Source of the DNA: Atopobiaceae bacterium
Lineage (GTDB): Bacteria > Actinomycetota > Coriobacteriia > Coriobacteriales > Atopobiaceae
Direction of reading: 5' to 3'
DNA length: 64,000 nt
NCBI GenBank assembly: GCA_022482785.1
Contig: JAKVON010000003.1
Coordinates: 62,001-126,000 of the forward strand
Within the stretch, counting starts at the first letter, position 1; the number at the start of each line of letters is the position of its first letter. Below, piece by piece: positions 4,924-54,016 of this stretch. The notes beneath the pieces were generated by a model. That model made no database searches and was not told the origin of the DNA. It saw nothing but the letters and a program-made list of their open reading frames with translations. The position numbers were made by a program, and so were the translations under genes.

Positions 4924-7900
4924 TTATCTGTCGGCGCGGCGCCTCCACAGGCCCGCAACGCCAATTCCGAGCAGTATGGCGGCACAGGCGAGGGCAGCGA
5001 GGCCGCTCGGGAGGGGGTCGCCCGTCTGCGGGGTCTGCGAGACGGCCGTCCCGCCGCCCGACGCGGAAGCCGTCGCCGACGCGGCCGAGAACGCGTTGGT
5101 GAAGACGTTTCCGCCGACCACGCCGGTAGTCGCCTCTTTGCCGTCGATCAGGATCCGGGTGGCCAGGGCACCTTCGTCATCGGTGACGACGAACGCCACC
5201 GTGTGCACCGTCGGGTCGTTCGACCAGCCAGCAACGTCGGCCGGAGCGTCGGACGAGCCGTTCGCCGCGACCTCACGCACGGTGTAGGAGTAGGTTCCCA
5301 CCCTGTCGAAGGTGATGTGCCCGAAGGAGTCCTCGGCCCCGTTCACGACCAGGCCGGGCGCGGTGCCCGCGGGCGCGGAGACCGAGACCCACTTGGAGTC
5401 GCCGACGGAGCCGTCGGGCATGTAGGCCGCGGTCGCGGCGTCGGACGCCTTGAGCATGAACCAGAACGTCGCGTCCGCGGTGGTCTTGTCGCCCGAGACG
5501 ACCTTACGCACCGAGAGCCAGGGGTCGGCGACGGTGACGGATGCGGGGTCGTAGACGTTCGCGAACGTGGTGGCGAGGAAGTCGTTGTCCGTGCCAGAGA
5601 GGGCGACCGAGGAGGCCTCGCCCGAGAGCACCGTGGCCGTGAGGACGCCGTTGACATCGGTGACCTGAACGGTCATGGTGACCGCACCGCCCGTGTTGCT
5701 CCAGCCGGCGGGCAGGGGCGAATCCTCGGCAATGGCGTACTGGTAGAGGCCAGGCTTGGTGAAGGTGATGGCGCCAAACGCGGCGGTCTGGTCGGCCTGG
5801 GAGGAAGGCGTTGAGGTGGAGACCGTGGCCGTGCCTTCCGTGTCCGTGGCGCCGTCGGGCATGGGCATGGTGGCCGCGGTGAGGCCAGCTGCCGAGGTGC
5901 CGACCGCCTTGAGCGTGTACCCAAAGGTCGCGGGCCAGTCGGGCGTGCCGGTGGTGACCGAGACCGTCTTCTTGACCGAGGGATTCACGGAGACGGGATT
6001 GAAGGTGTTGGTGATGGAAGCTGGCGTGACGGTTGGCGTGAGCGTGCCGTCCGCATTGGCCTTGACCTCAACCGTTACCTCGGCAGACGCGGCGCTGGCA
6101 CTCCATCCCGCACCAAGCGTGCCCTCGGTCACGAGGTAGTGATAGGTGCCTGGCTCGGTATAGGTGATCGGGCCGTTCTCGAAGGTGACAGCCTTGTCGC
6201 CGGTCTCCCCGGCCACGATCGACAGTGAGCCCGTAGAGATGGTCTTCCCCGCCGCGTTGGTGGGATTCGCCGTGCCATCGGTGCCCGCGATCCTGAAGCT
6301 GAAGGTCGTGGCAGGCGTGACGGCGGGCGTGAGGCTGCAGGCCACCGTCTTGGTGAAGAAGCCGGTGGCGCTCGGATCGACCGTCGTGGGCGTGTAGGCG
6401 AACCCGTTTGTGAAGGTGTTGGTGTTCGCGCCACCGTCCGAGGCCTTCGCGTCGTCGATGGTGACGGTCGCCCCGAGCACGCCGTTGGTGTTCGTGACCT
6501 CGACCACCACCCTGTGACCCTTGCCGGAGTTTGTCGCATTGGCCCCGGTCGTGTCGAACGTCCAGCCGTCCGCGTTTGTGGGCGCGTCGGTGGAGGTGGC
6601 GGAGGCAACTTCCTTCACATAGTACGTATAGGTTCCGGGCTTGGTGAACTCGATCGAGCCGAACGTGGTGTTCCCATCGCTCACCACGGTGCCGGAGGTG
6701 CCACCCGTGGTGCCCTCGGCTGCCGTGGCAGAGACCCACTTCGAGCCATCGGAGGTCGACCCGGCAGGCATGAACTCCTTCGAGGCAGCGTCACCCGCGG
6801 TCATGAGGTAGTAGAAGGTCTTCGCGGCTGGCGTCTTGTCTCCGGTGACCCTCTTCTCCACGGCGAGGAACGGGGCCGTGACGGTGACCGAGGTGACGGA
6901 GTACCTGTTCGTGAATGTGGTTGCCGTGAACGTATTGGTCACTGCCGTGCCAGTGAACTCGTTCATGCCCACCGTCGCCTTGAGAGCGCCGCCGGTGTCG
7001 GTGACGACGACCGTCATGGTGGTGTAGCCAGCGGTCTTGCTCCAACCGCTGCCGAGGTAGGTTGCGTCCTCGTCGATGGTGTAGGTGTAGGTGCCGGCCT
7101 TGGTGAAGGTGAGGGTGTCGAAGGCGACCGGACCGGGCGTCGAGGTGGCGCCATCGAATTCGACGGTCTTCTCGGCGGTGGTGGGTGCCGAGGCCGTGAT
7201 GTCCGTGCCGTTGGCGTCCACCGCGCTGGCGAGCGTCGCCGTGAACCCGAACGTCTTGGGGAAGGTGGGGTTGGTGCCAGCGTCGACCGTGATGGTCTTA
7301 TTAACGGAGGGCCTGATGGAGACGGGCGAAGTTGAATAGGTGTTGGTGATGGCGGCGGAGGTGACGGAGTCGATCGAGAGGGTTCCGTCGCCGTTGTCCC
7401 TCACCTTGACGGTCGCCGTGGAGGTAAGCGAACTCGCCGTCCAGCCCGAGCCGGGCGTGGCCTCGGTGACGGTGTAGGTGTAGGTGCCCGCCTTCTTGAA
7501 GGCGATGCTCCCGAAGGAGACCGGTTGGCTGCCCGTGGCCGAGAAGGTCGCGGTGCCGGTCGCGTTCACAGGCAGCGGCGCGGTGCCCGCGGCGGTGCCA
7601 TTCGTGTAGACAGCACTGCCGGCCGCGGCGGAGAGCGTGAAGGAGAACGTCTTCTGCGCGAACGGAATGTCCGAATCCACGGTCTTGGTGAGGATCGTGG
7701 TCTTCGAGGTGTCGAGCGTGGCCGAGGTCGCATAGGTGTTGGTGATGGCGGCGGCGGTCGTGACGGCGGCGGTGAGGCCGCCCTTGCCGTCGTCGGTCAC
7801 CGTGACCGTGGCGGTCGCGGTCCTGGTGTTCGGATCGGCGGTCCAGCCGGTGCCGGGCGTAGCTTCGGTGATGGTGTAGGTGTAGGTGCCGGGCTTGGTG

Positions 7901-10900
7901 AAGGCGATGCTGCCGAAGGAGACGGGCTTCGCACCGGTCTCGGCCGTACCGTAGGAGACGGTGCCGGTCGTGTTCGCGGGCAGGGGCGCGATGCCCGCGG
8001 CGGTGCCATCCGTGTAGACGGCGCTGCCGGCTGCGGCCGAGAGCGTGAAGGAGAACGTGCTCGCCGGGATCGAGGTCGCGGACGACACGGTCTTGTTGAG
8101 GATCGCGTTCGCGCTCGTGTCGAGCGTCCCGGAGGCGGTGTAGGTGTTGGTGATGGTGGCGGGGGTCGTGACGGAGGCAGAGAGGGTTCCGTCGCCGTTG
8201 TCCTTCACCGTCACCGTGACGTCGGCATACTTCTCGGTGGGGGTGACGCCCCAGCCCGTGCCAGGATCCGTCTCGGTGACGCGGTAGGTGTAGGTGCCGG
8301 CCTTGTCGTAGTAGAAGTTGCCGAACCCGATGGTGAGGGTCTTGTTAGAAGCGGCGGCCTGGGCGTCCACGCTGACGGTCGACGTGGTGGATGCGGCCGC
8401 GCCGCTGCTGTTGACCACGGGATTGGGCGTGCCGTTGATGCCGGCGATGGTGAACTTGAACTGCGCCGCCGGGGACGAGGTGCTCGAGACGACATGCTTC
8501 TGCGCGATGGCGGTCGTCGCGGTGTCGAGCGTCACCGGCGTGCTCGCATAACTGTTGGAGACGGTGGCACCCCCGACCGAGGTGACGGAGAGCCTGCCCG
8601 TCTGGGCATCCGCAGCAACCTCTACGGTGACGGTCTTCGCGGTGTTGTCGCACGTCCAGCCGCCGCCGGTAGTGGTCGTCTCCTTGACGGCGTAGGTGTA
8701 GGTGCCCGCCTTGGTGAAGGCGATGCTCCCGAAGTCGACCGCCTTCGTGCCGGTCGCGTTCGCGGCATAGGTGACCGAGCCAGACCCGTTGTCCTTTGTC
8801 GTGCCCTTGGTGGGCAGCGGTGCGGTACCCGCGGGGGTGCCGTCGGTGTAGGTGGCGCTGCCGGCCTCTATCGAGAAGTCGAAGGTCTTCTCGGCACCCG
8901 AGGTGTTGGTGGTGACGCTCTTGGTGAGAAGGGCCTGGGTCGCGGTGTCGAGGACTGCGGGCTCATAGTCGTTCGTGATAGCGGCAGGGGTGACGGAATA
9001 GATACTCAACGCACCCGTGTCCTTGTCGAGGCTCACGACCACCGTGACCGTCGAGGGCGACCCCGTGGTGACCCAGGCGCCCGAGTTGGCGTTGTCCTCG
9101 GAGACCGTGTAGGTGTAGGTGCCGGGGTGCGTGAAGGAGATCGATCCAAAGTTGACGGCCTGGCTACTCGCAGCCGAGAAGGTCGCGGAGCGGGTGACCG
9201 TGGTTCCCATGGTGCCCGTGGGCAGCGGGGAGGTTCCCGAGCCGGTGCCGTCGGTGTAGGTGGCGGTACCAGGCGTGAGCGTGAAGTCGAACTCGGTGCT
9301 GCCGAAATTTGTTCCCGTGACCGTCTTGTTGAGGATCGGCTCTTCTGCCGTGTCGAGCGTGACGGGCGTGTAATCGAACTCGTTGGTGAACGTGGAGGTG
9401 TTCGCCCCGCCGTTGGCAGTCGTCGTTCCGTCGACGGTAACCTCGGCCGTAAGGACGCCGGCGTTGTCCTTAACGTCGATGCTAATGGTGTGCGTCGTCT
9501 TGTCGTAGGTCCATCCCGAGGACTTCGTGGCAGGAGCGATCTCCTCCGTCTTATAGACGTAAATGCCGACATCCTTGAACGTGATGGTCCCGAACGCCGT
9601 GGCATCCGTGCTCACGACAGCGCCATCCTTCGTGCCAGCGGGCGCGGTGACGGTGATGGTCTTGGAGCCGCCCGCCTGGCCGCCGGGCATGGGCATGGTG
9701 TCTGTGGTGAGCTGCGTGTTCGTAGTGCTTACCGGCGTGAGCTTGAAGGTGAAGCTCTCGTCCGTGAGGGTCGTGTTGCCCGTGACCGTCTTGCGCACGG
9801 AGAGCCAGGGCCCCGCCACCGAGACGGAACCCGTGGCGTAGCTGTTATTGAACGTGCTGGCCAGGGGCGCGTTGGTGGTTGCCGTGCCCGTGAACGTGCT
9901 CGTGCCTACCGCCGCCTGGAGGGAGCCGCCTACGTCGGTGACGACGACCGTCATGGTGGTGGAGCCGCTCGTGTTGCTCCAGCCGGCCGGTAGCGGGGTG
10001 GCCTCGTCGACGGCGTAATGGTACGTCCCGGGCTTGGCGAAGGTGATGGACCCAAGCTTGGCCGTCTTGGTGGTGTCGCCGCTATTGAACGTAGTCGTCC
10101 CAGGTGTGTCCCCGGGAACAGGCGCGCCATTGAGGGCCTTGATCGTGTAGTTGAAGTCGACGGGATATGCCGGGGCGCCGCTTTCCACGGTGATGTTCTT
10201 GCCAACCGTGGGATAGATCGTGACCGGGGAGACCACGTAGCTGTTGGCGATGGCGCCGGCAGTCGTGACCGCTGCGGAGAGCGTGCCCTTGCCGTTGTCG
10301 GCGACCGTGACGGTGACCGTCTTCACGTCGCTGGCGCTGCCGTAGGTCCAGCCGTCGTTCGTACCGGTGGTGGTCTCGTTCACCGTGTAGGTGTAGGTGC
10401 CGGGGTGCGTGTAGGTGATCTTGCCGAAGTCGACGGCCTGGGTGCCCGCCCCCGTAAAGCTCGCGGAACCTGCGGTGTTGTTCTCGGTCGTGCCCTTGGT
10501 GGGCAGCGGCGCGGTGCCCGTGGCGGTGCCGTCGGTGTAGACGGCGCTACCGGGCGTGAGCGTGAAGTCGAACTGCTTGCTCGCGAACGAGACGTCGGAC
10601 GTCACGGTCTTGTTGAGGATCGCCGTCGCGGAGGTGTCCAGCGTGGCCGGCGTCGCAGCATATGTGTTTGTGACGGAGCCCGTGATGGACACCGCGTTGT
10701 AGGACGAGTTGTTGGTGGAAGACTCCCCCGTGACCGTCTTCGAATCGCCGGCGGACGTGAGCGTGGCGACGGCCTTGAGGTACTTGTCGCTCGTGGTTCC
10801 TGTGACGTCTTCGTTGGTCACGACGACGGTGAGGGTCTTCTCGGCGTTGTCGCACGTCCACCCGTCGCCGGATTCCGTGGACTCCTTGACTTTGTAGACG

Positions 10901-12623
10901 TAGGTGCCGGGCTTGGTGAAGATGATCGCACCGAAGGAGGCCGTCTGATCGGCCTTGGTGGAGGGCGTCGACGTGGAGGTCGTGACCGTGCCGGTGACGT
11001 CACCAGGCATGGGCATGGTGGCCGTGGTGAGACCATCGGCGGTGGTGCTCACGGGCGTGAGCTCGTACGAGAAGGTCGCGGGCCACGCCGGAACGCCATT
11101 CGTCACGCTGACCGACTTCGTGACCTGGGGCTCGATGGCGACGGCGCGCTTCACCCACACGGCATAGAGCGTGTTCGTCGTGAGGTCGGCGCCAGGGTCA
11201 AGCATCTGGTAGCTGGAGAGGACATACGGCGTCGCCTCAGCGGCGGTGTCGAACGGACCCACCTTCGTGGACGACCATCCGGCGAAGTAGTAGCCGTTGC
11301 GCGTGAGTTTGGTGGCATCCCAGGCCGTGGCGTCATAGCTCAGGGCCTGCGCCGTGGCGATCGTGACCGTGTCGCCCACAGAGTAGTAGTTCTGGTAGTT
11401 GCCGTTGACGTCAGCGCCGTCTTTCTTCGTGGCGTCGGTCGCGTTGTTCATGGGCAACACGCCCGACCCGCCGTTCGCATCGAAGTAGAGCGGATAGGCC
11501 GTCTGGAAGGTGATGTCGTCGAGAAGGCTCTGTTGCGATCCAGTCGTAGCCGCATACTGGACGAACTGGAATCGCGTGATCAGCTGACCCTTCAGGACCT
11601 TGTACGTGCCCGTATAGGTCTCCCAGGAGCCCATTCCATTTGATGCGTCCTGCTTGTCTGGGTGGAACTGGTCGGTCGTCGCCGGCGTGCTGATGACGGT
11701 AGACGAGAAGCCGATCTGGTTGGTGTCCTTGCTTCCGTTCACAACCTCCGACATGGTGCCGCCGTTGTTGGCCGTGGTCGAATAGACTGGGACGCCGTTG
11801 ACGTGGTTGGCGCTACCCACGCGCGTGGCCGTCTGGGCAGCCAACTTGGTAGGATCGGACGTGGGGCCGATGAGACCTGGAGCTGCGCGACAACGCCTTT
11901 GCCCGCTCCCGAGTGGTTGAGGGACCACTTGTAGATGGTGCCTGGAATGGTAGCGACATCCTGGTAGATTGAAGTTGTCTCGTCGATGCAGGAGACCTCA
12001 GAGTAGAGGTTGCCGTCGCCTCCCGCATACGTTCCGGTTCCGGCGTCGGTATTGCTATGGTCTGCCTGTATCTCGGCGAAGTAGCCCGACGTATTGTCAG
12101 AGTTCCACGCCTGATGCTCATGGGAACTCCATGCGAAGCTCACGGAGTCGAAGGGCGTTACGTACGCACCGTGTTTGTAGTCATAGCCAGTGGAGCAGTT
12201 CATGTAGACGAACGGCCCGCTGTTTTTGGCGGACGCAAAGCTCGATTCGTACGTCGCCAGGGACGGATACTGGAAGTCGCCGTTCAGCAGCTTGTTGGGA
12301 TACCACTTCGAAGTGGTTCCGTCATAGACGAACGTGACACTCGTGCCGTTCACGGTGGTGATGTAGGCGTCGCCGGCCGAGTTCGCATCAGGGAGTGCGG
12401 GGCTCCAGGTCGAGCCGTTATAGGTGTACGTGGTAACCACTTTGGTGGTCGCATCGGTATGCACATACATATCCCCTGCCACAGGGGTGGTGGGAAGGGT
12501 CACGGTGGTGGCGGCCAGCGCCCGCTGCGGCATCAGCACTGCACCGAGCAGCACGACAGCAATCGTCAGCGCCAGGGTGATGGCACGAGCAACCTTGCCT
12601 GTCTTCGACGGAATCACACCCAT
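4924..12623 (-). CDS. Giant cell-wall-anchored surface protein: signal peptide, adhesin-like N-terminal region, InlB-type repeat, 14 FctA/Spy0128-type isopeptide pilin repeats, xPQTG sorting signal; frame disrupted near 11878
   Basis: Start MGVIPSKTGKVARAITLALTIAVVLLGAVLMPQRALA with GGAGG RBS; 14 GxYxYxxxE motifs spaced about 110-120 aa; C-terminus TPQTGDPLPSGLAALACAAILLGIGVAGLWRRRADR. N-terminal part lies in the 11739..12773 frame, the rest in the 4924..11928 frame. Confidence 0.85.
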
Positions 12624-12953: not shown

Positions 12954-15900
12954 CTATACGTTCCGACGCCTGAGCCAAGACCCGATCGCAACGACCGCGA
13001 TACCCGCCAGAACGAAGGCGATCATCGGCAATGCCTGCGTGGAATCACCCGTCTGCGGTGCGGCCGCTGACGCAGTGGGCTCTTGGTTTGGCATAGGCGT
13101 ACCGCCCGTGGACGGCGCAGGCGACGTCGGATTCGAGACGTTCGTCGACACCGTGTTCGTCGTCGTCCCCGTTGCGGACGAAAGCAAACCGCTGGGCTTG
13201 GTCGTCGACGTCGCGTACAGGGCCGTGTTCGAGATGACCGTGCCGTCGGGACAATCGCCCACGGTGACCGTGAGGGAGACCTCGACCGATTCACCCTGCT
13301 TGACACCAGCCGGAATCCACCAGCTCACATAGCTCGTCCCGTCTGAGGACTGGGCCATGGCACCACCCTGCGTCGCCGAGACGAAGGTGGTGTTCGAGGG
13401 GATGACGTCAGTGACGTAGAGGCCGGCGGTTCCGACCGTTCCCGCGTTGGTGACCGTGATCGTATAGGTGAGCTCGTCGGCCGGCTTGGCGCTCGTCTTG
13501 TCGACCGACTTGGTTGCCGATATCTTGCTCTCCCCCGCGAAGTTGGCGGTGTAGGTTGCCGCGGCGTTGAGGCCGCCCACCTTGGCGGGAACGAGCCGGG
13601 CCCCGGTGGAGACGACCGCGCCGGAGGCGTCCGTCCAGCTCACGAAGTGGTAGCCGGGATTCGCGGTTGCGGTGGAGCCCACGGCCGTGCCCGTTGCAGG
13701 CGCGACGACCTCGCTGCCGGGATCGACCGAACCCATCGAGGAATCTGCCGTGACATAGGTGATGGCGACATCGGCGTCCTCGGCGAAGTGCGCCGTGAAG
13801 GTGGCGGCGGCGTAGGTGCCGCCCCTCTTCGCCACGGCGTCCACCTGGGCCTTGGTGAGCGTGGCGCCCGTGGTGGTCGTGGAGTCGAGGCTGTTGGTCC
13901 AGCCCGTGAAGTGGTAGCCGGCCGCGGCGGTGGCCGTGGAGCCCGCGGCGGAGCCGGTCACGGCGCCGAGCGTCTCGCCCGCCGCGGCGTGGCCGTGGAC
14001 CCCGGCGGAGCCGGTCACGGCGCCGAGCGTCTCGCCCGCCGGGGAGACCGAGCCCATAGTGGCGTCGGCCGAGGCGTACGTGATGGTGGCCTGGTCCTCG
14101 GCGAAGTGCGCCGTGAAGGTGGCGGCGGCGTAGGTGCCGCCCCTCTTCGCCACGGCGTCCACCTGGGCCTTGGTGAGCGTGGCGCCCGTGGTGGTCGTGG
14201 AGTCGAGGCTGTTGGTCCAGCCCGTGAAGTGGTAGCCGGCCGCGGCGGTGGCCGTGGAGCCTGCGGCAACGCCGGTGGCGACGCCGAGCGTCTCGCTCAC
14301 AGGGGAGACCGAGCCCTTCATGGCGTCTGCCGAGGCGTAGGAGATGGTGACGGTGTTCTCGGTCCATTGGGCGTAGAGCGTGGTATTGGCAGAAATCGTG
14401 AAGGTCGCCCCGGCCGCGTAGGCCGTGCCCGTGCCGTCTGCCGAGGTGTTCCACCCGGCAAAGACGTAGTTGGTCCTCGCGAGGGGCGTCGGCTGCGGGG
14501 CCGTGGCTCCCGTGTTGCCGAGCACGGTCACCGTCTCGCCTGCGGCGAGCTGGGCCTCGGCTGCGGGCACCGCTCCCGAGGTGGCGTCATTCCCGTCGTA
14601 GGTGAGGGTAACGGGCGTGTAGATGCCGGCGTCAACGCCACTGACGTCGTCGGTGAGGGTGGCGGGGACGCCGCGCTGACTCACGGCGACATCGGTCTTG
14701 TCGGCGGCGAACAGGGTGTCCGTCTGGGCGGAGTAGGTGCTCGTTTTCGTGCCCTCGGGCAGCGTCAGCTCGACGGAGAGGTTGGTATAGGCAATGGAGT
14801 CCTGGCTCGCGTAGGTGGTGGCATCAAATCTGTACGAACCGTCTTCTCCCGTCGTGGTGGTGGCCACGAGGGTCTTCGTCGTGGCGTAATCCTGGTAGAG
14901 CTTGACCGTGGCACCCGACACGCCGGGCTCGGCGGCATCCCTCATGCCATCCCTGCTCGTGTCGTTCCACACCGTGCCGGCGACCACGTTGGGCGAGAAG
15001 CTGAAGGTGCCGATGCGGGCGATATTCTCTTGCGTGCCGTTTTGGGAGTATTTGTTGGAAGCAGAGAGGTAGCACGAGCCCAGGGAGCCGGTTCGAACGG
15101 CGGTGGAGGCGGCTCCGGAGTTCTCGGTGCGCAGTGGCATGACCAGGCTGACCGCATCGGTCTTCGCGATCTTGTCCACGGCGACCTTCACGTTCGTGAC
15201 CGCGGACCAGTCGGTGATCGCACTTCCCGCGACGAAGTTCGCGCCGTCGGTGGAGTAGGTCACGACGGGCGTGGTGGTCCCTTCCTTCGTGCCCGCCGTG
15301 ACGGCGAGAGGCCCGGTGAGGAAGAGGCTCACGTCGTTCGTCCTTCCGTCGACGGCGCCGCCTCTGCTTGGAATCGCGATCGTGGTCTCAAGGCCGTCCA
15401 TGTCGAAGCTGTCGCCCGGCACGAGCAGGATCTTGCTGCTGAGCCCGCCTTCCTGGCTGGGCTTGACCGCCTGCTCGCTCGGCTGGTAGGTCCCGTCGCT
15501 GAGTCCCGGCTGCATGAGCACGCCGCTCGTGGCGTTGGCAGAGGGCGTGACGCTATACCCCTCGACGGGGAGAGCCCAGTGCAGGGAGGTCGTGCCCGCG
15601 TTGGGATAGATACCGAGCGGGTCGTTCTTGCAGTTGTCGTTGCTGTCGTTGACCCAGTCCCAGGTGAACGTGCCGTCAATCGTCTTGTTGCCGGTTCGGT
15701 TGTAGTAGTCGTTTTGCGAGGAGGTGAGCATCCTCGCCTGGATGGCCGTCGTGTAGGTCTTGCCGCTCGCGGGATCGGAGTAGGTGTAGGTCTCGCCCTC
15801 CTTCGTGAGGTCGAGCCAGCTCCCGGAGTCCTCGATGAGCTGCAGGGTGGTGGTGGGCGTCTGGGGCTGCGCGTAGATGTCGAACGTGACCTTCCAGGGG

Positions 15901-18900
15901 GCGAACGACGAGCCGGTCTGGGTCTTCTCGCCCACGTTGTTTGACGGGTTCACCACCTTGAGGTAGCTCGCGCCGCCGATGGTGACGATGGACGAGCTGG
16001 CAGGCTTTCCGTCGACCTCTGCCGTGCCGTCAAGGAACGAGATGTTCTCCTTCGCCGCCTGTGAGAGCTTGAAGTAGAAGGCCTCCCCGCCGCGCGAGTA
16101 GAGCTTGGGGTAGCCCGACGTGCTTGCCGAGAGCGCGACGTCGGCCTCGAGGGTCGTCGTCTCTCCCTGCGTGACGGGCATCGTGATCTTGGTGGTGGGG
16201 TTGTAGGAGCTCCACGTGGTGCTCATGCCGCTCGGAACGATCAGCTCGGCTCCCTTGAGGTTCACCGGCTGGGATATGGGGACGAAATAGCCCCAGTCCT
16301 GGGCCGAATGCTTTGTCGGGGACTCGACGCAGTTGTCGTACCTCACGTTCGCGAAGTTCGTCTTGCTCCCGAAGGCGGCGTTGTCCCCCAACTTGTAATC
16401 GGACAGCTCGGAGGCGCCCCCGGCGTATTGCGCGCCGTAGAACTCCCCGCTCAGCGGATCCTTCGCCATCCTGTTGATGCCCAGCGAGAAGAGCGTCTTG
16501 TCCACGGCGACGCCGTGCTCGCTGCCGTCCCACGTGTTCGAGAGCGAGCCGATGTCGAGCGAGGCTGGGCCCGTGAGCTTGACCCCGTAGATCACCTGGT
16601 CGGCGGGAATGCCCGCGGCGGCATACAGGTCGTAGGTCGACCCTCCCGAGAGGTTGGTGGCCGTGTAGGAGTGGGACGAGGCCCCCGTCTGCAGGTTGCC
16701 GCCCGCCTTGAACTCGGCGGCGCTCATGGTGGTGACGGTCGCCGTCCAGCCCGCACCCATGACCGGCCTCATGCTGAGCCTGCCGTTCGTGAAGTACCCC
16801 ACTCCGAACTGGGCGGTGTAGGCCCAGCTCATGCTGAGCACGGGGTTCTTCAGAGTGCTGAGCACGCCCGTGCTCTTCTGCACCGTTCCGGAGGAGTCCT
16901 TCACGTCGCCCAGGAAGTCGTCGGTCACCTTGAGGGCGAAGCCCTCCCCGCCGTCGGCGTTGTCTCCGTACTGCCCGTCGTAGTAGTTGCCCGTCTTCAT
17001 CGCGCCGCACCACCACGAGGGGCAGGACTCGCCGTCCACGTAGATGTAGTTGGTCTTCGTGTCCGTCTCCTCGGCGGCGCCCGCCGGCTTGGTGTCGATC
17101 GTGTAGGTGATGGGCAGCATCGTGCCGTTGGGAACGGCGGGATCGGTCGAGAACGCGAGGTATGACATGCTCGCCGCAGCATAGGCGAACTTCGAGTAGA
17201 CGACGGAGACCTTGGTGAGGTGCTCGTCTGCGGCGAGTGGCGACGGCATGACCGAGCTGAGCGAGAAACTCGAGCGAACGCCGGTCCCAACGGTCTGCTG
17301 CGAGAGGTCGACCGTGACGCCCTTGGGCTGCTTGTTGGTGAAGTAGGTGACCGAGCCGATCTTCTGCGTGGTCATCGTATGGGTCAGGTCGCTCTTGGTC
17401 GTTGTCGCCGTGTTATCGGGGTCGAACGATTCGCTCGCAGACGAGTCGCCGGTGATCTTCAGGTCGGTGGGAAAGATCCTGGAGTCGAAGCTCGCGGTTA
17501 TCGTCGTGGGACTGCCATCCGAGGCCGGGATGTCGTAGTTGTTGCCGGAGATGCCTACCGGGATCCTGACATTCTCGAACCACGCGAGAGTGGTGAGGTG
17601 TTTGTATTGGTCGTTCGCATCCCCGAGAACGTGCGATCCTCCGCCCGGAGCAATCTGCTTGAGAACGGACGAGCCGTTCACCTGTGGGAGGTTGTTGAAT
17701 CCCACCGTCTCGCCAACCAGGTTCGTGTAATCCACCGTCATCGTGGGCTTTTGGTCGATCTTCGTGCCGTCACCCATGGTCACCGTTGCGTTGACGGGAT
17801 ATGTGGCCTGGGCAGGGAGGAGCGTCGTGGGGTCTTGGTTCTTCTGGCTCCACTTCGCGTCGTCGGCCTTGAGATGAAAACGGCCGATCACACGCCTCAC
17901 GGTGGCGTTGGAGTAATCGTCCGACCAGGAAACGGTCGCGGTCCTCTTGTCCTGGCTGATGCTCGCGGTGGCTGTGGCCGACAGGTTGACGACACCAGTG
18001 CCGGTGGCAGCGGTCCAGTCGAGCCAGGTGAATCCATCCGGCGCCGTGAGGGTGACGCTCGTGGCCTTTACCAGGCCGTAGGAATAGACGTCGGGCAGGG
18101 CGTACGAAACCCAGAGCGAGGGAGTCGTCCCGTTCTCGGCCTTTCCGTGCTCGGTAATGTACAGGCCGCTTAGGTACGACGAACTGAGCGGCCTAGAGGA
18201 CAGGGAGCTCCGCTCTGAGGCTGGCGAGAAGCACGCCGTCACCCCCGTGTAATTGTTCAACGAATAGGCGACGCCCGCGGTGGCCGTCGCCCCGCTGCCG
18301 TTGCTCGTCGTCGCGACGAAATCCGTGCTCGCGGGGATGGCGGTGGTGCCGTTGGGCGTCCAGGTGCCGTTGCGCTCGGCGTTGGCGCGGGTGTCATCGA
18401 TGCTCGACCTGTTGAGAACCACCGCGAAGCTCAGGGTGGTGGTGTTGGAGGTCGCGGGGAACTCGAGGGTGATCTTGTTGTTCATCGCGTTCGCGTTGTT
18501 GGTGACGTCGTTCTCGGCCGCCTTGATCTCGTAGTTCTCGGTCTTCGTGCCAACGGGATAGTTGGTGGTGTCCAGGCTGTAGTAGTCGGGCAGCGTGACC
18601 GTGACCGTGCTCGGGGCATCGGAGGTGCCCGGCGTATAGGTGATGTTGGGATAGACCGTCTCGTTCTCGCCGAGGACGAGGGCCGAGAGGTCGACGGCAC
18701 TTCCCTTCGCGTCCTTGATGGCGATGGAGAGCGACGGGGTCCCCGTGCCCTGCGTGGTGATCACGGGAGACGAGGAGGAGGCGGGAGCGGCGGCAGGGGA
18801 TGCCGGGGCGCCGGCGCCGTCCTGCGTAGACCCCTTCTCGGCGACGCTCTCGCACGTGGCAGGAGCGGCCGAACCAGAAGCGACGGATTCCGCGGCGGGA

Positions 18901-19166
18901 GCTGGCTGCTCAGAGACAGGGGACTCTGCCTGGGGCGACGCGGGCGTCGTCTGCTCGACCGTCGCCGGAGACGAAGACGATGAGACCGCATCGGCGAAGG
19001 CCCCCTGCGGCATGAGACCCATCGTCAGCGCGACCGCGAGGAGGATCGAGAACGCACGTCTCGCCGCCGCAAACGAGACCAGCGAGCCCATCCTGGAGGA
19101 GTCGCCCGTCACGGTGACGTCCGCCTCGCCCATCGTGTCGGCGTTCATGTTGCTCCCCATCCCCAT
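12954..19166 (-). CDS. Large LPXTG-like surface protein with SdrD-B-like domain, InlB/Listeria-Bacteroides-type repeats and DUF11 domain, APQTG sorting signal
   Basis: Signal sequence FSILLAVALTMGLMPQGAFA; VVAGTVWNDTSRDGMRDAAEPGVSGATVKLYQD (SdrD B-like); GYHFTGWTNS repeats; SATKSVDKTSAKPADELTYTITVTNAG (DUF11); C-terminus APQTGDSTQALPMIAFVLAGIAVVAIGSWLRRRNV. Confidence 0.85.
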   Translation of the reverse strand: MGMGSNMNADTMGEADVTVTGDSSRMGSLVSFAAARRAFSILLAVALTMGLMPQGAFADAVSSSSSPATVEQTTPASPQAESPVSEQPAPAAESVASGSAAPATCESVAEKGSTQDGAGAPASPAAAPASSSSPVITTQGTGTPSLSIAIKDAKGSAVDLSALVLGENETVYPNITYTPGTSDAPSTVTVTLPDYYSLDTTNYPVGTKTENYEIKAAENDVTNNANAMNNKITLEFPATSNTTTLSFAVVLNRSSIDDTRANAERNGTWTPNGTTAIPASTDFVATTSNGSGATATAGVAYSLNNYTGVTACFSPASERSSLSSRPLSSSYLSGLYITEHGKAENGTTPSLWVSYALPDVYSYGLVKATSVTLTAPDGFTWLDWTAATGTGVVNLSATATASISQDKRTATVSWSDDYSNATVRRVIGRFHLKADDAKWSQKNQDPTTLLPAQATYPVNATVTMGDGTKIDQKPTMTVDYTNLVGETVGFNNLPQVNGSSVLKQIAPGGGSHVLGDANDQYKHLTTLAWFENVRIPVGISGNNYDIPASDGSPTTITASFDSRIFPTDLKITGDSSASESFDPDNTATTTKSDLTHTMTTQKIGSVTYFTNKQPKGVTVDLSQQTVGTGVRSSFSLSSVMPSPLAADEHLTKVSVVYSKFAYAAASMSYLAFSTDPAVPNGTMLPITYTIDTKPAGAAEETDTKTNYIYVDGESCPSWWCGAMKTGNYYDGQYGDNADGGEGFALKVTDDFLGDVKDSSGTVQKSTGVLSTLKNPVLSMSWAYTAQFGVGYFTNGRLSMRPVMGAGWTATVTTMSAAEFKAGGNLQTGASSHSYTATNLSGGSTYDLYAAAGIPADQVIYGVKLTGPASLDIGSLSNTWDGSEHGVAVDKTLFSLGINRMAKDPLSGEFYGAQYAGGASELSDYKLGDNAAFGSKTNFANVRYDNCVESPTKHSAQDWGYFVPISQPVNLKGAELIVPSGMSTTWSSYNPTTKITMPVTQGETTTLEADVALSASTSGYPKLYSRGGEAFYFKLSQAAKENISFLDGTAEVDGKPASSSIVTIGGASYLKVVNPSNNVGEKTQTGSSFAPWKVTFDIYAQPQTPTTTLQLIEDSGSWLDLTKEGETYTYSDPASGKTYTTAIQARMLTSSQNDYYNRTGNKTIDGTFTWDWVNDSNDNCKNDPLGIYPNAGTTSLHWALPVEGYSVTPSANATSGVLMQPGLSDGTYQPSEQAVKPSQEGGLSSKILLVPGDSFDMDGLETTIAIPSRGGAVDGRTNDVSLFLTGPLAVTAGTKEGTTTPVVTYSTDGANFVAGSAITDWSAVTNVKVAVDKIAKTDAVSLVMPLRTENSGAASTAVRTGSLGSCYLSASNKYSQNGTQENIARIGTFSFSPNVVAGTVWNDTSRDGMRDAAEPGVSGATVKLYQDYATTKTLVATTTTGEDGSYRFDATTYASQDSIAYTNLSVELTLPEGTKTSTYSAQTDTLFAADKTDVAVSQRGVPATLTDDVSGVDAGIYTPVTLTYDGNDATSGAVPAAEAQLAAGETVTVLGNTGATAPQPTPLARTNYVFAGWNTSADGTGTAYAAGATFTISANTTLYAQWTENTVTISYASADAMKGSVSPVSETLGVATGVAAGSTATAAAGYHFTGWTNSLDSTTTTGATLTKAQVDAVAKRGGTYAAATFTAHFAEDQATITYASADATMGSVSPAGETLGAVTGSAGVHGHAAAGETLGAVTGSAAGSTATAAAGYHFTGWTNSLDSTTTTGATLTKAQVDAVAKRGGTYAAATFTAHFAEDADVAITYVTADSSMGSVDPGSEVVAPATGTAVGSTATANPGYHFVSWTDASGAVVSTGARLVPAKVGGLNAAATYTANFAGESKISATKSVDKTSAKPADELTYTITVTNAGTVGTAGLYVTDVIPSNTTFVSATQGGAMAQSSDGTSYVSWWIPAGVKQGESVEVSLTVTVGDCPDGTVISNTALYATSTTKPSGLLSSATGTTTNTVSTNVSNPTSPAPSTGGTPMPNQEPTASAAAPQTGDSTQALPMIAFVLAGIAVVAIGSWLRRRNV

Positions 19167-20187
19167 ATTTAATTCTCTTTTACGCTGCCCGTGCCTGCCA
19201 GCACGTGACCAAAGCTCCTTGCAACACGAGCCTCCCCACGCACACGCCCCAACGCGTCGAACGGCGGCTCTCCGCATCTCCTTGCTAGCACGATGTGCTA
19301 GCACGATGGTTCGAACGGCCAGATGGTATTCTCGATGCTATCGGAGACCTGTGGGCCGTTAGTCTGTCGTTCGGACACGACCGGCGGTTGTCAGGGCACC
19401 AACGACGTACCCGAGGGTTTCCTTGTCCCTTGAGTTCAGAATTGCATGATCCGGGAGGCGCGACGCCGCCTCGCCCCTTCGCCGAGGGCCGAGCGGGGCG
19501 AGCGCGTCACTCCATCGTGCGGCGCAGGGCGTCGCGCCAGCCGGCCAGCAGCCGCTCGCGCGTGGCGCCCGGGACGTGTGGCTCATTCTTGACGAGATGC
19601 CGTTCTTCATTGTTGTTCTCCCCGAGTCTCGAGGTGTTCGTGACCGCTGTAGCCCTTTGGTGCAGATTCGGTGACGCCATGCGCATGATCCCTGCTCCTC
19701 ACGGGCACAAATTGCTGCTTTTTACTGGCATTTCTCCGTGCGTTCCGAGTGCCCGTGACGTTCAAACCACCTCGCCCAAAATTGAAGGGACAGCGGCTTT
19801 GTACGGTACGAACCGCATATCTGCCGATGTAGCTACTCATGGGCCAACCTGCCATGTGTGCAGCTCAACATAGAATTATTAGGGGATATGAGGCAAAAAC
19901 TGATAAGCTCCGTGGTGTCCCATGCCTGTGAACTATCCATAACAAATGTGATTCTTGTCTGAACATAATAACGTCATGTGGTGCGTTTTACGTCGCATTC
20001 CAAAGAAGCCTGAATAAATTATTTATATGACAGCTGCACCTCGAGGCTCGTTGCAAACACACGCTTCCGAGGACCTTGACGGCTGCCCCATGCTCCCCGC
20101 TTGCGGTACCCTTGGTGGGTTGAAATCACCGCCGGCCCCATCCGACAGCCCGGCGTCATCCGTTTCGCCCTCGGGAGAGAGACCCTC

Positions 20188-35885: not shown

Positions 35886-36051
35886 GGCCTCGCGTGCACG
35901 GGCCGCGAGCGGTACTGGTCGCACGTTCGCGTCGATACCGCCATTCCTCCGTGAGCGGTCGGATTCTCCCCGCGAACGTGACTTATCGACAAGGTCTATG
36001 CTGTTTGGCAAGCGCTGGTCCATCAGTCCGCGTCCCCTAAAGGAGAGAACC

Positions 36052-45011: not shown

Positions 45012-45581
45012 CTATTCCTCAGCGGTCTCGACGGCAGCCTCGGCAGCGTCCTGAGACTCCTCGGCGGTCGCCTCGGAAGACTCAACCTCCGCTTCAGGCT
45101 CCGCAGCCGCAGCCTCGTCGGCCTTAGCGACGTCCTCGGCCGATCCGACCGCGAGGAAGAACTTGGAGGAGATGGAGCGGTAGAGGTCGATGGTGATCTC
45201 GTGCGTGCCGGCGGTCTTGATGGCGCGGTTGAGCTCGATGCGCTTGCGATCGATGGTGATGCCGAGCTGCTCGGAGACGGCATCGGCGATCATGGCAGCG
45301 GTGACGGAGCCAAAGAGCTGGCCCTCCTCGCCAACCTTGGCGCTGATGCGGACGGTCTTCTCGTCGAGTGAGGCCTTGAGGGCCTGCGCCTCGGAGACGC
45401 GCTTCTCCTCGCGCTTCTCGATGTTGTGGCGACGCTCATCGAGCTGCTTGATGTTGCCTGGGGTCGCGGGAAGGGCGATGCGCTTGGGGAACAGGTAGTT
45501 CTCCGCATAGCCTTGGGCGACGTCGACGACGTCGCCTTCCCCGCCCTTGCCCCGAAGCTCACCCAGAAGGATGACTTTCAT
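45012..45581 (-). CDS. rplI: 50S ribosomal protein L9
   Basis: MKVILLGELRGKGGEGDVVDVAQGYAENYLFP; extended acidic C-terminal tail. Confidence 0.95.
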   Translation of the reverse strand: MKVILLGELRGKGGEGDVVDVAQGYAENYLFPKRIALPATPGNIKQLDERRHNIEKREEKRVSEAQALKASLDEKTVRISAKVGEEGQLFGSVTAAMIADAVSEQLGITIDRKRIELNRAIKTAGTHEITIDLYRSISSKFFLAVGSAEDVAKADEAAAAEPEAEVESSEATAEESQDAAEAAVETAEE

Positions 45582-45628
45582 GGACACTCCTTTGCTTGGC
45601 CGACGGGCGAGCCGCCGGCTGATGCTTA

Positions 45629-45892
45629 CTAGTCGCGGTTACGGCCGCCGCGGCTCGACACCACGGGGACGGTGTAGGGCAGCAGTGCCATCTCGCGTGC
45701 GCGCTTGATGGCGACGGCGACCTCGTGCTGATGCTGCGTGCAGGCGCCAGTGACGCGGCTGGGCTTGATCTTGCCACGGTCGGTCATGTACTTGCGGAGG
45801 AGCTGAGTGTCCTTGTAGTCGATGAACTCAGTGTTCTCCTTGCAGAACTGGCAATACTTGCGACGCGGCTGACGCTGATACTCAGTAGCCAT
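45629..45892 (-). CDS. rpsR: 30S ribosomal protein S18
   Basis: [62 protein letters not shown]. Confidence 0.96.
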
Positions 45893-45936
45893 GTCTCATT
45901 ACCTTTCTTCTGGCGAGCGTGAGGCTCGCCCAACTG

Positions 45937-46450
45937 CTAGAACGGGATGTCCTCGTCGTAGACGTCGGCCTTGGGCGGCGTCTGGACAGGGACGCGATGG
46001 TGCGGAGACGGGCGCAGGGGCCTGCACGGGGGCAGGGGCTGGGGCGGCAGCAGGCTGCGCGTATCCCTGGGAGTACCCTTGGGAAGTCCCCTGGGGATAT
46101 CCCTGGGAAGCCCCCTGAGAGCCCCTGCTCGAGAGAAACTCGATCTCGTCGACGATGACCTCGAGCTTGCTTCTGCGCTGACCCTCGCGCTCCCACGAGC
46201 TGTAGCGGAGCTTGCCTTCGATGGCCACCTTCGATCCCTTGGAGATGAAGCGGCTGACGGCCTCGGCACGCGTGCCGAACATGACGCAGTCCACGAAGTT
46301 CGGGACGTCCTCCCACTCGCCGGTCTGCTGGTTGCGACGACGGTCGTTCACCGCGACGCCGAAGGTCATGAGCGGCGATCCGCCCTGCGTCTGGCGCAGC
46401 TCGGGGTCGCGTGTCAGGTTGCCCGTAATGGTGACTCTGTTGATGCTCAT
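45937..46450 (-). CDS. ssb: Single-stranded DNA-binding protein; frame disrupted at about 45988
   Basis: MSINRVTITGNLTRDPELR...; acidic tip DEDIPF occurs in the adjacent frame after CGTCCC[T]GTCCAG. Confidence 0.92.
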
Positions 46451-46499
46451 ATGGCTCACTACCTCTCGTGGCGGGTCTTAGGCCCGCCCTTCCATGAAA

Positions 46500-46794
46500 C
46501 TAGTCGCGGTCCGTGCGAGCTACGACCATGTGGCGCTTCACCGCATCGTTGATGCGGAGAATGCGGTCGAGCTCGGCGATCTGCGTTGGGTCTGCATGGA
46601 AGTCAATGAGGGTGTAGTCACCCTCCGTGAGCTTGTCGACGGGGAACGCGAGCTTGCGCTTGCCCCAGTTGTCAACGTTGTCGACCTGGCCGCCCTGCTC
46701 TGTGATGGCGACGTCGATGCGCTTGAGGACCCCGGCGCGGGTCTCCTCGGTGATTGCAGGGGTCGACGAAGAACAGCAGTTCATATGCCTTCAT
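46500..46794 (-). CDS. rpsF: 30S ribosomal protein S6; frame disrupted at about 46758
   Basis: MKAYELLFFVDP in one frame, AITEETRAGVLKRIDVAITEQGGQVDNVDNWGKRKLAFPV in the next; junction GACCCC[T]GCAATC; AGGAGGTGA RBS. Confidence 0.92.
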
Positions 46795-46847: not shown

Positions 46848-47123
46848 AGGAAAGGTTCGAGTCGGTATGGTAACACAGGTTTGCCCAGCTTCCGCAAGTA
46901 AACACATCTCGTTGCGGTGCCCCCGGACGACTTCACGCCCTCCCAACGCCTCTCGAGGTAGCGTATCAGCCTCCTCCGACACGAATCCGACGGTCCACAG
47001 GCCCTTCCTTACAGGATTTGGGGTCTCGGCCGCTCAGCCTTGCCTGTCGTCGGATGTCGACACTCCCTCCATTTCACGAGAGCAACAGATGGCGGCTCGT
47101 TGGGACGGGCCGCGGGCCGCGAG

Positions 47124-47278
47124 CGGTACTGGTCGCAGGCTCGCATCAGTACCACAAAAGTGCGAGTAGAAGCCATCCGTACGCGACAAAACCGCAGGTC
47201 GTCGCCATCCGAAAGTGGTACTGATCGTACTTCGTCTTCCGCAGCGTGGTACTGGTCGCACTCTCGCATCAGTACCAC
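47124..47278. repeat. Dispersed intergenic palindromic repeat, copy A (two units)
   Basis: Contains CAGTACCACAAAAGTGCGAG, GACAAAACCGCAGGTCGTCG, GTGGTACTGATCG, and the 9-bp inverted pair GTGGTACTG...CAGTACCAC. Confidence 0.7.
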
Positions 47279-49000: not shown

Positions 49001-51253
49001 CTATGCCCTCCTCGGAACCATCCTCTTCAGGAGCCCGAGGGCCACGGCGCACACGACGGCGCCCACGCAGAGGGCCACCAGGTACTGCTGCGGGAAGCCC
49101 CACCACCGGTATCACGAAGACGCCTCCATGGGGCGCCATGAGCGTGCACCCGAGGGCCTCGGAGAGCGCCCCTGCCACCGCCGAGCCGAGGATGCATGCG
49201 GGTATGACCCGGGCGACGTCGGTCAGCACGTAGGGCAGGGCGCCCTCAGGTGATGAAGGAGAGCCCCATGAGGAGGGTCGGGAGGGCGGAGCCCCTCTCC
49301 TTCTCGTCGAAACCCTCCGGGAAGATGCGGGTGGCAAGCGCGATGCCGCAGGGAGGAACCATGCCTCCCACCATCACGGCGGCCATGAGGTCGGTGCCCC
49401 CCGTCTGGATAGAGGCGACGCCGAAGTGGTAGGCGACCTTGTTCATGGGCCCTCCCATGTCGATCGCCATCATCGCCGCGCTCGTAGCCCCTGCGGCCAG
49501 CCTGTTGCTCTGGGCGAGGCCGGCGAGCCATGCCGAGAGGGACGAGTCGATGACGGACACGAAGGGGACTCACCACCAACGTCACGGCGAGGTACATGAT
49601 GAGGAGGCTGAAGATCGGATAGATCACGATCGGCGCGACGGCGGACACGCCCTTGGGCATCTCGTCCACGAAGTTCCTCATCAGCCTGATGACGAAGGCG
49701 GAGAGCAGTCCCCGCCGCGATGGCCCCGACGAAGCCGGCGTTTCCCTGGGACGAGATGTAGCCGCCGGCAAAGCCGGCGACGAACGCCTCGCGCCCGACG
49801 AGGCTCTCCGCGAGGAAGCCCGCGAACACGGGAAGCATGAAGTTGAAGGTGGTCGAGCCGATCGTGAACAGGGCCTTGGCGAAGGGCGTGATGGAGCCGA
49901 AGGAGGCACGCGCATCCGCGGAGAGGGACCCGACGTCTATCGAGGCCCCGTCCACGAGGAACGCGAGCGCGATGAGTATGCCCCCTCCCGCGACGAAGGG
50001 GATCATCCGCCTCACCGCGGCGAGAAGCCCCTCCGTGAGGTGAGGGCGGGTCGCCCACCTGTCGCGACCGGTGCGGGCCGAGGCCTTGTCCCTTGCGGCA
50101 GCCCCCGCCTGGGTCGCGGACGCCGGCTTGTCGACGGCGGCGGGTGCGGCGGCCTGCTCGTAGGCGACCGACGGGGTCTTTCCCTCCTCGAAGACGGTGA
50201 GGAAGCCCCTGCCGTTCTTCTTCGACTGGTAGAGCGCCTCGTCCGCCCGCTCGACCATCGAGTTCAGCCCGAGGGCCGCGCCCACGCGGGCCGCGCCCAC
50301 GCTCACGCTCAGGCGCACTCCCTCGGCAGGCTCCGATTCCGCGACGAGCGCGACGAGGCGGCGAATCCTCCAGCATGCCTCCCCCGGGTCGAGGAGCAGG
50401 ACGCCGATGAACTCGTCGCCACCCCAACGCCCGACGATCCCGTCCTCCCCGACGACGCCCGTGATGGTGCGCGCGACGGACAGGAGCGCCTCGTCGCCAA
50501 CGGTGTGCCCGAACGTGTCGTTGATGCGCTTGAAGAAGTCTATGTCGAGCAGGAACACCGTCGCCCGCTCGAGCTTGCCCTCCTCCTCGAGCGTCTCGTA
50601 GGAGGAGACGAACGACTTCCTGTTCGCCAAGCCCGTCGCCTCGTCGGTCGTGGCCAGCTCGACGATTCTCTCCGGTAGTTCTGGATGACCGTCGTCGTCA
50701 TGAACACGACGACGGCGAGGATGCCGAGGAGCATCACCGACAGGGTTGCCATCTGCTGGCGCTGCTGGGTGAACATGTCCTGGGCGCGGTTCTCGACCAC
50801 GAGGTAGAGCCCCATCTCCCCGTCATAGTTCGCCTCGACGAGGCACTGCGCCTTCCCGAACGGCTCGCCGAGGCCCATCCACGCCTTGGCTTCGGTCGCG
50901 TCGCCAGACAGCTGGTCGCCGATCGCCGCGACGGCGGCGTCGGCGAACGCGTTCTGTCCCTGGCGGTCGGAGCCGGACGAGGCGAGGACGATGGTGCCGG
51001 AGGAGTCCATGAGGAAGGCCTCCTGGCCGTACCTCTCCTCGACGAGGCGCAGGGCCTCGCGGTTGGCCTGCTCGGTGGCGGCCGGATGGACGTTACGCAA
51101 GGCGCTGGCCAGGGCATAGCCGCTCTCGTTCTCGGCATATGACACCACGGCGGACTGGCTCGACCGGTAGAAGAGGACGGCGCACGCGACTATCCCCACC
51201 ACGATGATGGCCCAGACGGCGACTATCTGACTGCTGCTTCTCTTGGGGGACAC
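49001..51253 (-). CDS. Fusion: two-TM cache-like sensor + GGDEF diguanylate cyclase + PTS EIIC (fructose-type) domain; several frame disruptions
   Basis: GTG start at 51253 with GGAGG RBS. TM1 [21 protein letters not shown]2 [16 protein letters not shown], then [16 protein letters not shown]...RWGGDEF. Within one ORF (49470..50630) the GGDEF domain continues into [27 protein letters not shown]...[32 protein letters not shown] (EIIC). The remaining EIIC segments lie in alternating frames to a stop at 49001. Confidence 0.75.
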
Positions 51254-51373
51254 TGTTCCTCCGTATGGGAATGGCTCCCATACATTCTCGGAAAGATATC
51301 GTCCCCCTTATCTGGGAAAACCGCCGAACGTGCCCTCTCGTCCGTCCTATGGCGCGATGGATGTCGGCCGACG

Positions 51374-53840: not shown

Positions 53841-53922
53841 GGTACCACAAAAGTGCGAGTGGCCGCGGCGGGAGCAGGACGAAACCGCAGGTCGTCGAGA
53901 GACGCTCGTGGTACTGATCGCA
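53841..53922. repeat. Dispersed intergenic palindromic repeat, copy B
   Basis: GGTACCACAAAAGTGCGAGT...GACGAAACCGCAGGTCGTCG...CGTGGTACTGATCGCA, same order of blocks as copy A. Confidence 0.7.
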
Positions 53923-54016
53923 GTTCCGGACGACGGCACGGCACCACGGCGCGGGCTCCGTGTCCCGCAAGACAAAAGACGGGCCAGAGGACGCTGCCCT
54001 CCGGCCCGGCGAGATG

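Follow-up and report, generated by a model that had tools for sequence, protein, structure and literature searches.

The window, a stretch of 64,000 nucleotides from an Atopobiaceae bacterium, carries on its minus strand a gene for a transmembrane sensor, a GGDEF domain, and a fructose-family EIIC domain. In the assembly the gene is spread over six frame segments, and its features are as follows.

51257..51262, minus strand: GGAGGA, a ribosome-binding-like sequence before the GTG start of the fusion gene (sequence)
49001..51253, minus strand: the whole sensor-GGDEF-EIIC gene, in six frame segments (end-to-end alignment with intact orthologs)
51253 and 49003..49001, minus strand: GTG start and TAG stop of the gene (sequence)
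50672..51253, minus strand: N-terminal sensor, consisting of a TM helix, an outside Cache/PAS-like domain (approximately residues 31-160), and a second TM helix (AlphaFold model and Foldseek)
50208..50654, minus strand: GGDEF domain with the catalytic motifs and without an I-site (PF00990, 106 bits; motif table)
50409..50429, minus strand: RWGGDEF active-site motif (sequence)
50046..50207, minus strand: Ala-rich linker at the position of the EIIB-EIIC linker of FruA (alignment; low pLDDT for residues 353-390 of the L015 model)
49001..50045, minus strand: fructose-family EIIC domain (TIGR01427, 297 bits with a cut-off of 158; PF02378, 57 bits)
49438..49461, minus strand: DMGGPMNK motif of EIIC, kept (motif comparison)
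49242..49254, minus strand: ITEG motif of EIIC, kept, with a superfluous T at 49248 of the assembled sequence (sequence and motif comparison)
49122..49136, minus strand: APHGG motif of EIIC, kept (sequence and motif comparison)

Segment 1 is the upstream ORF (50540..51253), which codes for two TM helices around an outside domain of approximately 130 residues. Segment 2 contains the GGDEF domain, the Ala-rich linker, and the start of EIIC, and segments 3-6 supply the remainder of EIIC. The initial annotation had proposed this arrangement, with RWGGDEF, the linker, and the EIIC start in the ORF at 49470..50630, two TM helices flanking an outside domain upstream, and the rest of EIIC in downstream frames that end at 49001; each of these elements was confirmed. 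By itself, this ORF (minus strand, 386 residues) matches the Pfam families GGDEF and PTS_EIIC with 94 and 27 bits, and the scores for the read-through chain are 106 and 57 bits. The read-through EIIC aligns with positions 15-346 of the 346 in TIGR01427 (PTS_IIC_fructo). The query for the read-through protein contained a superfluous V at position 2 and an X at three of the frame changes; the result was unaffected.

The five frame changes were located by comparison with the intact orthologs. The gene is one base short near 50668, and it has an extra A at 49709, one C too many in the CCCC at 49564-49567, an extra T at 49248 within ITEG, and one G too many in the GGGG at 49098-49101. Runs of four G or C account for two of the five sites. 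A path of codon usage over the window keeps most genes in one frame and concentrates the changes in the sensor-GGDEF-EIIC gene, and five indels in 2.25 kb could be taken as the mark of a decaying pseudogene in which the frame changes are real. However, when the protein is read through, only 3 of the 125 residues that are invariant over 13 relatives differ (M493V, A520S, and I563V), all of them mildly, and no stops are found inside the read-through segments. The indels of this assembly also extend to two genes that are unlikely to be dead. In the same genome, PNPase leaves its frame for a stretch and then returns to it (TIGR03591 positions 155-212 are in another frame), and FruA is split between frames at the EIIB-EIIC linker. 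Because these two genes are broken as well and so few invariant residues differ, the five frame changes are very probably assembly errors, and decay of the gene in this organism is improbable.

Both the PNPase and FruA frame changes are found on contig C6 of the window's genome, G000 (L103:1654-6904). Within the window, the coding signal at 45022-46767 of the minus strand hops frames in short pieces, and this region is perhaps another broken gene. A short dispersed repeat around GTGGTACTGRTCGCA (families D17 and D18) occurs at 35899-35939, 47113-47153, 47185-47233, 47236-47276, and 53878-53926. Two ORFs of 2334 and 2116 residues (4924-11928 and 12954-19304, minus strand) contain many diverged repeats and probably code for surface proteins.

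Relatives were collected in one scan of an 84,980-species collection, followed by added genome searches. The sensor-GGDEF-EIIC fusion was found in at least 16 further genomes from two phyla, distributed over Coriobacteriia, Lachnospiraceae, Oscillospiraceae, and Erysipelotrichaceae. Intact frames of 739-891 residues are present in 15 of these genomes, and one copy is cut at its 5'-end; the order of the domains is always the same. The scan returned intact fusions from Coriobacteriaceae (L015), Oscillospiraceae/Oscillibacter (L016, L018, and L020), and Lachnospiraceae (L019, L021, L022, L024, L025, and L026), together with the 5'-cut copy, L017, which is filed under Erysipelotrichaceae. The genome searches added L096, L097, and L098, which belong to a single further genus within the window's family, as well as L106 and L107 from the family of the Oribacterium genome. 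As to whether orthologs might encode the two domains separately, a check proposed in the initial annotation, the relatives found have both in one frame. The candidate explanation that two adjacent genes had been wrongly joined is ruled out by these single frames. Since intact orthologs exist, the fusion is independent of the broken copy in the window, and it is virtually certain that the one-chain protein is real.

The fusion is rare. Of the 140 genomes searched in the window's family, 4 have it, and the same four are the only ones among 400 genomes of its class. The family of the Oribacterium genome gave 4 of 397, with a fifth match (G746) that is a plain FruA, and the genus of L021 gave 1 of 29. 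Record titles identify rumen samples as the source of many of the named carriers. In a tree of EIIC domains, the 17 fusion EIICs are on one side of a branch (100/100) and 14 FruA-type EIICs, almost all of which come from fusion-carrying genomes, are on the other; the coriobacterial fusions group together, including that of the window (95/93). The GGDEF tree agrees in outline, with three unfused cyclases (L027, L028, and L030) near or among the fusions, where L028 falls among the fusion GGDEFs with weak support. The cyclase part therefore likely arose once, although this is not proven. The simplest account would be a single ancient fusion that later underwent transfer and loss.

In the AlphaFold model of the sensor (mean pLDDT of 86), helices and strands follow one another as in a single Cache/PAS domain. 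The best Foldseek matches are the extracellular domains of WalK/YycG (7dud and 5is1) and the sensor of an MCP (2qhk), with modest scores (E-values from 5e-5 to 9e-4 and TM-scores of 0.4-0.6), and no Pfam family matches the sensor. The model and these matches place a PAS-like fold between the two TM helices. A model of the full-length chain does not resolve how the domains are placed relative to each other (pTM of 0.49), and its linker is of low confidence. GGDEF matches dominate the Foldseek search with the whole model, and the best EIIC-type match is an integrative PTTBC model (9a6a_B). The sensor sequence is poorly conserved, with 17-23% identity to that of the window. In L096 and L098 the sensor is a longer domain and GGDEF-EIIC is retained, and for this reason we regard the sensor as exchangeable and GGDEF-EIIC as the constant unit.

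The catalytic motifs of the GGDEF domain, for metal binding by Asp and for substrate binding, are present in all 17 fusions, including that of the window, and we consider it highly likely from these motifs that the domain is an active diguanylate cyclase. As originally noted for the window, the RxxD motif of the I-site is missing. Positions -9 and -6 before GGDEF are both Gly in the window protein, none of the 17 fusions has Asp at -6, and RxxD is found in none. Product inhibition at that site should therefore be lacking, which would leave control to the inputs of the protein. The carriers that were checked possess other c-di-GMP enzymes as well. In G000, which is approximately 86% complete, there are 12 GGDEF matches and one EAL match; four other carriers have 12-31 EAL matches.

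The EIIC domain is best understood by comparison with FruA. An alignment with L108 shows that GGDEF occupies the position that EIIB has in FruA. Profile searches (Pfam and TIGR) found no EIIA or EIIB domain attached to the fusion, in agreement with the initial annotation, and no EIIB gene was noticed beside the fusion in the loci examined. A phmmer search gave no solved relatives of the fusion EIIC by sequence. The fusion EIICs and FruA have 70 columns in common, including DMGG-NK, ITEG, and APHGG. The ADRPGL loop after TM2, which from the alternation of the helices would face the cytoplasm, where EIIB would dock, is G-x-x-AF in all 17 fusions, and its Asp is lost in every one; SIADRPGL of FruA corresponds to SLVGREAF in the window protein. 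ADRPGL, or a close variant of it, is found in FruA-type EIICs of Actinobacteria, Firmicutes, Proteobacteria, Deinococcus, and an archaeon. It deviates in some annotated transport EIICs too, such as FrwC of E. coli (AERSAL) and a protein of L. salivarius, Lactobacillaceae (AGKAAI), and its loss is for that reason only moderate evidence against transport.

These properties bear on two other explanations for the EIIC domain. It may still transport its sugar with an EIIB in trans, from FruA or another system, so that the cyclase reads the transport cycle and one protein serves as permease and signaller at once. The motifs of the type found at the sugar site are retained, and EIIB genes are present in 13 of the 14 carrier genomes searched, and the window's genome has 9 PTS_IIB matches. 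Against this stand the loss of ADRPGL from every fusion, an EIIC with neither EIIA nor EIIB attached and no EIIB gene noticed nearby in the loci examined, and one carrier (G438) that has no PTS_IIB match, although this genome may be incomplete. We regard transport as rather unlikely. It is more doubtful still that EIIC serves as a membrane anchor and dimerizing scaffold that binds nothing, with the Cache-like domain as the sole input. Several of the nearest GGDEF relatives (L027, L028, and L030) are TM-sensor-GGDEF proteins without EIIC, so such a cyclase can manage without it. Nevertheless, the columns shared with FruA, with their three motifs, go beyond the needs of a scaffold, and two TM helices already come with the sensor.

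No neighboring gene is conserved across all of the carriers, and most carriers share none; those observed are lineage-specific, and sugar genes adjoin the fusion in only a few. In Pseudobutyrivibrio MD2005 (L021), the gene for a lipoprotein of the sugar-binding family Peripla_BP_4 (180 bits) overlaps the fusion gene by the final few codons of the latter; next come dhaL (Dak2), dhaM (EIIA-man), and dhaK (Dak1). No ABC permease genes were seen near this group (L021:7673-10788). On plasmid pNP243 of Butyrivibrio fibrisolvens (L143:2792-6001, WP_338802811.1), an ortholog of this binding protein (48% identity) follows EIIC in frame, in a sensor-GGDEF-EIIC-Peripla_BP_4 chain of 1070 residues. The binding protein part retains its own Met and lipobox, and the join could thus be a one-base sequencing event. 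A ROK sugar kinase begins 17 bases downstream of the fusion gene in L107. Another cyclase is the convergent neighbor in Oribacterium L022, where it contains a sugar-type binding domain, and in L024, whose protein is 76% identical to it. A separate FruA-type EIIC is found in most carrier genomes.

The initial annotation had suggested that EIIC may sense or bind a sugar and couple it to c-di-GMP synthesis, and not transport it. This suggestion is supported in part, by three indirect lines: the motifs are kept and ADRPGL is lost, a binding protein overlaps or is fused to the gene in two species and a ROK kinase is beside it in a third, and FruA is separate in most genomes. An EIIB in trans may still allow transport. 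We favor, as slightly more likely than not, a membrane diguanylate cyclase with a fructose-family EIIC as its sugar receptor. Such a chain would have two inputs, the outside Cache/PAS-like sensor at the N-terminus and EIIC at the C-terminus. EIIC would bind a fructose-like sugar, which in some species a tethered binding protein might pass on to it. The output of c-di-GMP would be set by the relative position of the GGDEF domains in the dimer, and this position would shift with the conformation of EIIC or with how fast EIIC is drained through phosphorylation by the EIIB of the cell's FruA. The Cache-like domain would act by way of the long helix leading into GGDEF; EIIC would act from the opposite end, where its sugar-bound or EIIB-coupled states could join or part the GGDEF domains. 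GGDEF domains need dimerization to work, and the EIIC domains of the solved PTS families are dimers. Because known EIICs are dimers, the two cyclase domains could be kept together by EIIC at the C-terminal side and by the sensor helices at the N-terminal side. More tentatively, a former permease domain may have become the built-in sugar receptor of the cyclase, with a tethered binding protein of its own, in place of an ABC transporter, as its supplier in some species. The chain would then combine three signals into its output of c-di-GMP: the outside Cache signal, the sugar, and how far the PTS is phosphorylated.

If EIIC is a receptor, the cell would gauge its sugar supply at the membrane, with no need to import or metabolize the sugar. 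The elevator movement of a transporter would then serve as an allosteric switch, with c-di-GMP as the readout for an assay. The fusion offers a simple test case for EIIC domains of the PTS as pure sensors, in rumen and gut bacteria in which surface attachment may be linked to the use of sugars. The fusion is hidden by annotation, since the one annotated relative (WP_338802811.1) is labelled merely "fructose-specific PTS transporter subunit EIIC".

A paper in PLoS Genetics reportedly describes c-di-GMP proteins of C. difficile with PTS EIIC-like domains. The open literature searched yielded no study, whether experimental or comparative, of a GGDEF-EIIC protein. The architecture itself is already known, since a 2022 review (PMC8846402) counts PTS_EIIC among the rare partner domains of GGDEF, EAL, and HD-GYP in Pfam v34; the passages concerned treat PTS_EIIC as a phosphoreceiver and give no study of one such protein. 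The Pfam profile for PTS_EIIC finds no match in L015 and L019, and Pfam tallies may therefore undercount these fusions. This conserved lineage with a fructose-type EIIC appears to be undescribed, as do the signature of its EIIC and the association with a binding protein.

The fusion resembles the transmembrane Cache-type diguanylate cyclases in its sequence of TM helix, outside PAS/Cache-like domain, TM helix, and GGDEF with an intact catalytic site, and differs from them by the polytopic permease domain after GGDEF. With FruA (EIIABC or EIIBC; TIGR01427) it shares a complete EIIC with DMGG-NK, ITEG, and APHGG that is preceded by a soluble domain and a linker; unlike FruA, it has GGDEF in place of EIIB, neither EIIA nor EIIB, no ADRPGL loop, and a clade of its own. 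In V. cholerae, the state of the PTS sets the level of c-di-GMP through EIIA-Glc and PdeS (as described in PMC8846402), which are separate proteins and involve a phosphodiesterase and EIIA, not EIIC. PTS sugars thus act on c-di-GMP through separate proteins in the known systems, whereas here the permease domain is wired to the cyclase itself.
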